Origin: Risungbinella massiliensis
Lineage (GTDB): Bacteria > Bacillota > Bacilli > Thermoactinomycetales > Thermoactinomycetaceae
Assembly: GCF_000942395.1 (NCBI RefSeq)
Contig: NZ_LN812103.1
Location: forward strand, 811,394-875,393
Direction: 5' to 3'
Length of the DNA stretch: 64,000 nt
In this document: positions 15,336-53,163 of the stretch, one piece after another
How positions within the stretch are numbered: position 1 is the stretch's first letter
Layout of the letters: each line of letters starts with the position of its first letter
Program-made: the position numbers and the translations under genes
The notes under the pieces: model-generated
The model's input: only the letters and a program-made list of their open reading frames with translations
Database searches by the model: none
Told to the model about the DNA's origin: nothing

Positions 15336-15588
15336 AATAAGAGCATGGAAAGGGAAGAGTAAGAGACGTACTTCTTGCATAGCGAGTTAGGGAGAGTGGG
15401 AGCCTAACCAAGAAACGTTTTTGAAAATCGCCCTGGAGCTGTTACCTGAAATGGTGAGTAAGGTTAACCGTGTTATTCACGTTACGAATGAAAACAAGTG
15501 GTAAGGAATTTTATCATTCCTTACTATTAGGGTGGTACCACGAGAGTCCCTCGTCCCTAGCGGATGAGCGGGCTCTTTTTTGTTTCAT
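15336..15588 (+). ncRNA. T-box riboswitch leader (Ile) upstream of ileS
   Basis: The leader contains the T-box core AGGGTGGTACCACG (15529-15542) and a terminator AGAGTCCC ... GGGCTCT with seven T residues (15543-15585). In Stem I the segment GAAAATCGCCCTGGAGC places ATC (15427-15429) at the specifier, an isoleucine codon that agrees with ileS downstream. Uncharged tRNA-Ile should pair with specifier and T-box, favour the antiterminator and switch ileS on. Confidence 0.93.
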
Positions 15589-32415: not shown

Positions 32416-33111
<696 letters not shown>

Positions 33112-52424: not shown

Positions 52425-52765
52425 AAAAAATCGTCCCTACGGATCATGTAGGGACGATTGAAAATCGCGGTACCACCCTAGTTGTGAAGAAACAACTAAG
52501 AAGCCTATGCCTACAATAAAAAATCGCCCCTACGAAAATGTAGGGGCGATAAAATATCGCGGTACCACCCTAGTTGTGAAAACATTCTTCACCACTTTAT
52601 TTGATATCGGTATGGGACTACCGTCTCTCGCTTCCTCATGATGAGATTCACGAAAGATGCTCCAGGACGAATTTCATGAAAAATCTATATGCTGATTTGC
52701 ACCAACCATCAGCTCTCTGAGATAGGGAGATTTTCACTACTGTACCCCTTCATCGCGTTATATGT
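52425..52765 (-). ncRNA. T-box leader (probable Phe) with two tandem antiterminator/terminator modules
   Basis: On the minus strand one Stem I region (about 52760-52640) is followed by two T-box cores AGGGTGGTACCGCG (plus-strand 52558-52571 and 52466-52479), each with its own terminator: ATCGCCCCTAC / GTAGGGGCGAT (52523-52550) and ATCGTCCCTAC / GTAGGGACGAT (52430-52458), both with T-runs. The Stem I piece GAAATTCGTCCTGGAGC aligns with GAAAATCGCCCTGGAGC of the ileS leader, putting TTC (52669-52671) at the specifier. Two barriers from one Stem I should give tighter control. Confidence 0.88.
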
Positions 52766-52790
52766 AATTTTCTAATTTTATTAGTATCCA

Positions 52791-52819
52791 TTTTTAACAC
52801 ATATAAAAATAACTGTCAA
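52791..52819 (-). promoter_or_regulatory. Candidate promoter of the NSS T-box transcript
   Basis: Minus strand TTGACA (52819-52814), 17-bp spacer, TAAAAA (52796-52791): consensus -35, weak -10. Confidence 0.5.
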
Positions 52820-53163
52820 TGATTTCGAATGATATTATCTATAATTCTAATAAAATTATACTATGCTAATGTGATTATGATGAAAAGAGAATTACCAGCT
52901 AGTCTGGTAGAGAGAAATCTTAGATAGAAAATATCGTTTTCAATATTACCATTTGGTTAAGACTCATTGGCTATGGGAATGCACCTAAGATAAGATTTGG
53001 ATCTTTCATCGTAGATAGGTGTCTAAGCAGGAGATGTGTAGATTTTGTAATCGAGTAGGAGGTAATCACCCCTTATTTATAGATATAGAAACCATGAAGT
53101 ATCGTTTATAATATAGTTGGTTTTATTATGGAATCGTTGTGGTTGGATTAAGGAGAGAGAACC

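Follow-up and report, generated by a model that had tools for sequence, protein, structure and literature searches.

One Stem I and two antiterminator/terminator modules precede an NSS transporter gene

The window analyzed here is a stretch of 64,000 nucleotides from Risungbinella massiliensis (contig NZ_LN812103.1, positions 811,394 to 875,393). On its minus strand lies a transporter gene, and a whole T-box element is found 5' of this gene on the same strand (Table 1). A preceding interpretation made from the letters alone (the sequence-only reading) had called the gene an NSS transporter and had placed the element, with no mention of its strand, at positions 52425-52765; both statements were correct. 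The gene product scored 173.4 bits against PF00209 (cut-off, 27; E = 1e-50), and its closest solved relative was 4us3 ("TRANSPORTER"; E = 4e-107).

Table 1. Features of the NSS transporter locus, with the evidence for each
Feature	Coordinates	Strand	Evidence or remark
NSS (SNF) family sodium-dependent amino-acid symporter, 445 aa	51055..52392	-	Pfam PF00209; nearest solved structure 4us3
Complete T-box leader: Stem I, Stem II, IIA/B region, Stem III, antiterminator 1	52539..52762	-	Rfam RF00230
Distal Stem I, AGAGA and GGUUGGUG motifs (tRNA elbow contact)	52691..52719	-	Rfam alignment
Specifier codon UUC (Phe); Stem I loop sequence CAUGAAA-UUC-G	52669..52671	-	Rfam alignment
Stem III of module 1, not pairing the core AGGG	52572..52598	-	No upstream pairing of AGGG in any of 11 first modules
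Antiterminator 1, T-box core AGGGUGGUACCGCG, 7-nt bulge UGGUACC	52541..52572	-	Rfam and folding
Terminator 1, hairpin and U tract	52518..52550	-	Terminator scan (52550-52523) and folding, -20.9 kcal/mol
Hairpin ahead of module 2, pairing part of the core 2 AGGG strand	52477..52500	-	Possible anti-antiterminator
Antiterminator 2, core AGGGUGGUACCGCG, exactly as core 1	52449..52480	-	Permissive Rfam search, repeat search, folding
Terminator 2, hairpin and U tract	52425..52459	-	Terminator scan (52459-52429) and folding, -18.7 kcal/mol
Probable sigma-A promoter: -35 TTGACA (52819-52814), 17-nt spacer, -10 TAAAAA (52796-52791)	52791..52819	-	Consensus scan

An Rfam covariance search revealed a full match of the leader to the T-box model RF00230 (153.9 bits; E = 9.6e-35; model positions 1-219; gathering cut-off, 93). 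Two such matches had been anticipated. The first was found at the leader, but the second core (52483-52450) appeared only in a permissive search, in which it aligned to model positions 183-216 alone and scored 16.9 bits, far below the cut-off of 93. The two modules, of which the second spans 52480-52425, are direct repeats 92 nt apart, with two stretches, of 43 and 23 nt, that are each 91% identical. Folded alone, both antiterminators took the canonical form, with A1 and A2 helices and a 7-nt bulge, at -10.1 kcal/mol (module 1) and -8.3 kcal/mol (module 2). Four terminator-like sites were scored in the region versus 0.3 expected in shuffled sequences, and terminators 1 and 2 were the strongest. 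In each module, the antiterminator and the terminator are predicted from overlapping sequence and would be mutually exclusive. The full match, the core-only second match, the direct repeats, and the folding all bear out the claim that one Stem I is followed by two complete antiterminator/terminator modules.

No second Stem I was found before core 2, nor a second full Rfam match; the interval between terminator 1 and core 2, ∼40 nt, is too short to hold a Stem I. The fully tandem T-box class was therefore rejected for this leader, and its two modules behind one Stem I are those of a partially tandem T-box. The features of RF00230 that we looked for were all present: the full covariance match, the specifier/tRNA match, the UGGN bulge, and the antiterminator and terminator predicted to exclude each other. 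Within the host genome, a whole-genome core-spacing search found two cores this close at this locus only. The roles of the AGAGA and GGUUGGUG motifs of the distal Stem I are general knowledge; they are also set out in PMC7583486.

The promoter in Table 1 is probable. The scan itself scored a register with an 18-nt spacer (AAAAAT), at a level expected by chance and weak alone; TTGACN-17-TAAAAA-like strings lie 5' of most orthologous leaders. A 15-nt inverted repeat (93%; 52773-52787 and 52844-52858) flanks the promoter; it is a possible operator and could be due to chance.

The specifier codon is UUC, and tRNA-Phe matches both cores

The specifier had been read as TTC (Phe), and three observations uphold this reading. 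The Rfam alignment places UUC in the specifier loop. UUC is invariant in 10 other leaders, in which it was read from the sequences (the automatic match missed that of L024 only), while the base 5' of it is A, G, or U. Lastly, the other T-box of the window (15337-15561, plus strand), an ordinary element with an isoleucine specifier that served as a control, has AUC in the corresponding column of the alignment; the gene that follows this T-box starts as isoleucyl-tRNA synthetase (ileS). The covariance alignment yielded no specifier other than UUC for the NSS leader. Both tRNA-Phe genes of the host carry the anticodon GAA and discriminator base A, and therefore the ACCA end matches the UGGU of both cores. 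Elsewhere in the window, a PyrR binding site was identified on the plus strand (32419-32545; Rfam RF00515; 70.3 bits).

Can the substrate of the transporter be deduced from its leader? Phenylalanine uptake had been predicted on this ground. The phenylalanine specifier stands, but uptake of phenylalanine only does not follow from it. The structure 4us3 is that of MhsT from Bacillus halodurans, and MhsT is a multi-substrate hydrophobic amino-acid transporter. Control by tRNA-Phe thus does not exclude other hydrophobic amino acids, the substrate being deduced from T-box specificity.

Orthologous leaders carry arrays of two to four modules

To place the leader among its relatives, we surveyed the best 80 NSS relatives in other genomes, with cores recognized at up to two mismatches. 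The nine closest transporter orthologues (82-87% identical, all in other genera) each had two to four modules behind one Stem I: three or four in Lysinibacillus, two or three in Paenibacillus, and three in Priestia taiwanensis. None of these nine had fewer than two, and their cores lay 87-92 nt apart. Two modules were found in a more distant relative from Bacillus infantis (L040; 65% identical). Each of these orthologous leaders gave a single full T-box match. In a further Lysinibacillus genome the array had four modules. The period of the array was 82-92 nt in all relatives except one Lysinibacillus array (L027), which is interrupted by an insert of ∼130 nt between modules 3 and 4, 5' of the transporter gene. 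The insert, perhaps a small mobile element, has an almost perfect inverted repeat at its start (AACTTCTTTTAGTGGGT...ACCCGCTAAAAGAAGTT). Bacillaceae-1 RNA elements (RF01690) also lie near the NSS locus in L040 (250-316 and 991-1057) and in L024 (4988-5056).

Brevibacillus NSS relatives have two complete tandem T-boxes instead (L031, 1404-1931; L032, 1401-1931). Set against the module arrays, these full tandems mean that there are two architectural routes to extra switches at an NSS transporter, the Brevibacillus doubling being an independent route to doubled control in the same transporter family. The host genome also has two complete tandem T-boxes, 5' of trpE (C6:979734-980309). Full tandems at both places would fit the view that the window leader, too, is a pair of separate T-boxes, the Stem I of the second having degenerated or escaped notice. 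We regard this as extremely improbable: it is contradicted by the spacing of ∼40 nt between terminator 1 and core 2, the second core aligns to Rfam positions 183-216 only, and the period of 82-92 nt is common to the relatives, the one insert-bearing array apart.

The distribution of the transporter bears on where the array came from. Only 1 of 22 other genomes of the host family has a transporter relative at 49% identity, and that one is without a T-box; the remaining genomes have relatives at 35% identity or less, or none. The array is patchy in the other genera as well (6 of 32 Lysinibacillus, 2 of 19 Paenibacillus, and 1 of 19 Priestia genomes). Glucose-6-phosphate isomerase of Lysinibacillus, Paenibacillus, and Priestia is 50-71% identical to that of the window, compared to 82-87% for the transporter. 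Because the host family almost lacks this transporter, the cassette was probably acquired horizontally; joint transfer of the transporter and its leader is the simplest reading of these comparisons. The best plasmid match (Bacillus velezensis, 61.6%) was without a T-box, and a plasmid origin of the cassette was rejected. The module pair had been put down to a probable local tandem duplication. This holds for the sequence, but not as an event private to the host genome: orthologous leaders have two to four modules, and the array was thus probably inherited with the transporter.

Closely spaced double cores are rare and favor aromatic biosynthesis and transport genes

We then asked how often two cores lie too close together for a second Stem I. 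Such pairs were found in 9 of 398 genomes of a phylum-wide sample and in 8 of 399 of a class-wide sample, the host being in both; a reversed spacing pattern, used as a control, gave 0 matches in ∼800 genomes. The layout is therefore unusual, as claimed, in frequency (∼2% of sampled genomes) but not as a novelty, because partially tandem T-boxes are a recognized class (PMC7583486). Among the unrelated loci (L112-L128), L122, L124, L126, and L127 follow two complete T-boxes, which gives three terminators.

The downstream gene was readable at 16 unrelated double-core loci. Eleven encode aromatic biosynthesis enzymes (seven DAHP synthases, two TrpE, and two chorismate mutases), five encode transport proteins, and none encodes a tRNA synthetase. 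In the host, by comparison, 13 of 20 T-box leaders belong to synthetase genes (13/20 versus 0/16; Fisher P = 5e-5, with one genome as the baseline). The absence of synthetases means that doubled switches sit on genes open to complete shut-off. These data suggest that dispensable genes, namely, those for aromatic biosynthesis and uptake, have been selected for a tight off state.

Downstream modules retain the tRNA-binding bulge

All 33 intact modules of 11 leaders were predicted to fold into a bulged antiterminator and a U-tract terminator (-17 to -24 kcal/mol). When downstream modules were compared over 217 between-genome pairs, the 14-nt core and the 7-nt bulge were 0% different, although the cores had themselves served to recognize the modules (≤2 mismatches allowed). 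In the same pairs, the spacer differed by 21%, the antiterminator loop by 22%, and the terminator loop by 22%. Neither the preceding hairpin, the antiterminator, nor the terminator had a base pair in which both partners differed from the commonest pair; the relatives are too similar for covariation, and the case rests on the contrast between regions. In the antiterminator this bulge stays single stranded, and it is known to serve as the binding site for the tRNA 3' end. Given this role, its invariance suggests that downstream modules most likely bind tRNA. Judging from the contrast with the ∼21% divergent loops and spacer, the extra switches are probably in use.

One alternative is neutral slippage, in which recombination multiplies the repeats, the copies are tolerated, and module 1 alone matters. 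Several features of the arrays would fit this view. Copy number varies from two to four across relatives, and decayed modules occur, at the 3' ends of arrays only (L022, L025, and L027). Modules within one array are 6.3% different versus 11% between genomes, and some are nearly identical (L024 and L175), so arrays turn over; we take this as a sign that continued duplication or conversion keeps the modules similar, which explains part of the similarity between modules. However, a second intact terminator necessarily affects transcription, every close orthologue has at least two modules, the downstream bulges are invariant next to loops that diverge, and T-boxes of this class are found again on aromatic genes of distant lineages. 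We therefore find neutral slippage improbable.

A further feature distinguishes downstream from first modules. In all 22 downstream modules, but in 0 of 11 first modules, the AGGG strand of the core can pair into a preceding hairpin, which brings a gain of -2.5 to -7.2 kcal/mol; 13 of 16 unrelated double-core loci show the same tendency. Shuffled spacers equaled the pairing gain in 1 to 26 of 300 trials in four cases and in 188 of 300 in L040. Because shuffled spacers reach the same gain often enough, we keep the hairpin as a lead only, as a possible anti-antiterminator predicted by folding.

Serial fail-safe termination as a candidate mechanism

The anatomy of the leader, its UUC specifier, the tRNA match, the conservation of downstream cores, and the array family are all read from sequence and comparison. 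They pose a puzzle: the polymerase has two to four terminators to pass, but the single Stem I binds one tRNA. The explanation that we favor, with moderate confidence, is serial fail-safe control, in which two consecutive terminators would give a tighter off state, whichever way the second gate opens. We infer leak suppression as the function, as we do the opening of gate 2. With charged tRNA, terminator 1 would halt most polymerases, and those that leak through would meet an independent terminator 2, so that leakage would be multiplied down. With uncharged tRNA-Phe on Stem I, the ACCA end would pair with the UGGU of antiterminator 1. Two routes past terminator 2 can be envisaged. In the relay route, terminator 1 would refold behind the polymerase, and the anchored tRNA would redock its 3' end on antiterminator 2. 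In the cross-helix route, antiterminator 1 would stay closed and leave the 3' strand of terminator 1 (T1-3') free; this strand, which is nearly identical to that of terminator 2 (T2-3') and transcribed earlier, would capture the 5' strand of terminator 2 (T2-5'). By either route, gate 2 would open only after the tRNA had opened gate 1; in the off state, terminator 1 would hold its own strand and terminator 2 would act as a back-up.

Partition-function folding was applied to the cross-helix route. With antiterminator 1 engaged, the pairing probability of T1-3' with T2-5' in the nascent RNA was 1.0 until most of T2-3' was out, and it was 0.77 for the window leader at full length. The cross-helix won (>0.5) in 17 of 21 module pairs of the NSS array family and lost to the terminator's own helix in L028 and L040. 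In unrelated double-core leaders it won in 4 of 14 (versus 17 of 21; Fisher P = 0.004). The cross-helix was rejected as a general mechanism of partially tandem T-boxes, since the own terminator wins at most unrelated loci, and within the arrays it is partly an unavoidable product of repeat identity.

Could the tRNA act at module 1 alone, each opened terminator disarming the next by its free 3' strand and downstream modules being nothing but back-up terminators? The 17 of 21 module pairs would fit, and no base pair of the T1-3'/T2-5' register is lost in the window (one is G-U), compared to a C-A mismatch in the reverse T1-5'/T2-3' register. This account leaves the invariance of an unpaired tRNA-binding bulge in downstream cores unexplained, however, and the own terminator prevails in L028, L040, and most unrelated cases; we judge it unlikely. 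Invariant downstream cores fit the relay better than the cross-helix alone, as the relay route would explain the invariant bulge.

The relay in its strict form, without the cross-helix, amounts to an AND gate. Every antiterminator would have to recapture the tRNA 3' end, readthrough would, in either state, equal the efficiencies of the gates multiplied together, and the array would give up maximum expression for a steeper response. We hold this as a tentative possibility. The NCCA-binding bulge is invariant in every intact downstream module, downstream antiterminators are as stable as the first, and the downstream AGGG strand is held in a hairpin, so help from the tRNA would be needed. Against it, the free T1-3' strand is predicted to seize the shared antiterminator 2/terminator 2 strand first for as long as the antiterminator 1-tRNA complex persists, and much expression would be lost with four serial gates. 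A memory-passing ("domino") array can also be envisaged, in which one tRNA binding event at the first switch would free a terminator strand that disarms the next terminator, and so forth for up to four terminators, and leakage would drop with each copy while the on state went unpenalized; we consider this version doubtful.

Relation to known T-box arrangements

The window leader is a member of the recognized partially tandem T-box class. It shares with the common T-box riboswitch (RF00230) the Stem I specifier, the distal AGAGA/GGUUGGUG motifs, Stem III, the antiterminator with a 7-nt bulge, and the competing terminator, and it adds a second module that lacks a Stem I of its own and falls under the Rfam threshold. 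T-boxes with duplicated terminator-antiterminator elements were reportedly first described by Vitreschak et al. in RNA in 2008. A 2020 review (PMC7583486) names partially tandem T-boxes as a class and lists their working as unknown; no mechanism for them was found in the literature that we searched. One sensor and a duplicated antiterminator/terminator are common to the class, whereas the NSS family described here is phenylalanine specific, has up to four modules, and keeps a period of 82-92 nt. The terminators of unrelated partially tandem cases are mostly insulated from each other; the near-identical strands of the NSS arrays, in contrast, predict cross-pairing. In fully tandem T-boxes (thrZ and trpE), serial switches also act on one transcript and recur on amino-acid genes, but no unit lacks a sensor of its own. 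Contiguous riboswitches as defined in PMC12452182 need at least two aptamers, a definition that leaves out the partially tandem form.

For the Bacillus cereus group, a phenylalanine T-box has been predicted before NSS transporters (PMC2494555), and the same paper counts "sodium symporter (4x)" among T-boxes whose distance to the start codon is unusually large (300-480 nt). The specifier amino acid and the transporter family are those of the window; the number of modules is absent from that paper.

Core-only modules score far below the Rfam cut-off (16.9 versus 93 bits here), so searches with the full covariance model miss such modules, which makes for a blind spot. What may be new are the length of the arrays (up to four modules), their joint spread with one transporter, and the prediction of a cross-helix. 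The NSS family provides natural leaders with two, three, and four near-identical modules behind one Stem I, for which dose, relay, and cross-helix models predict different behavior.
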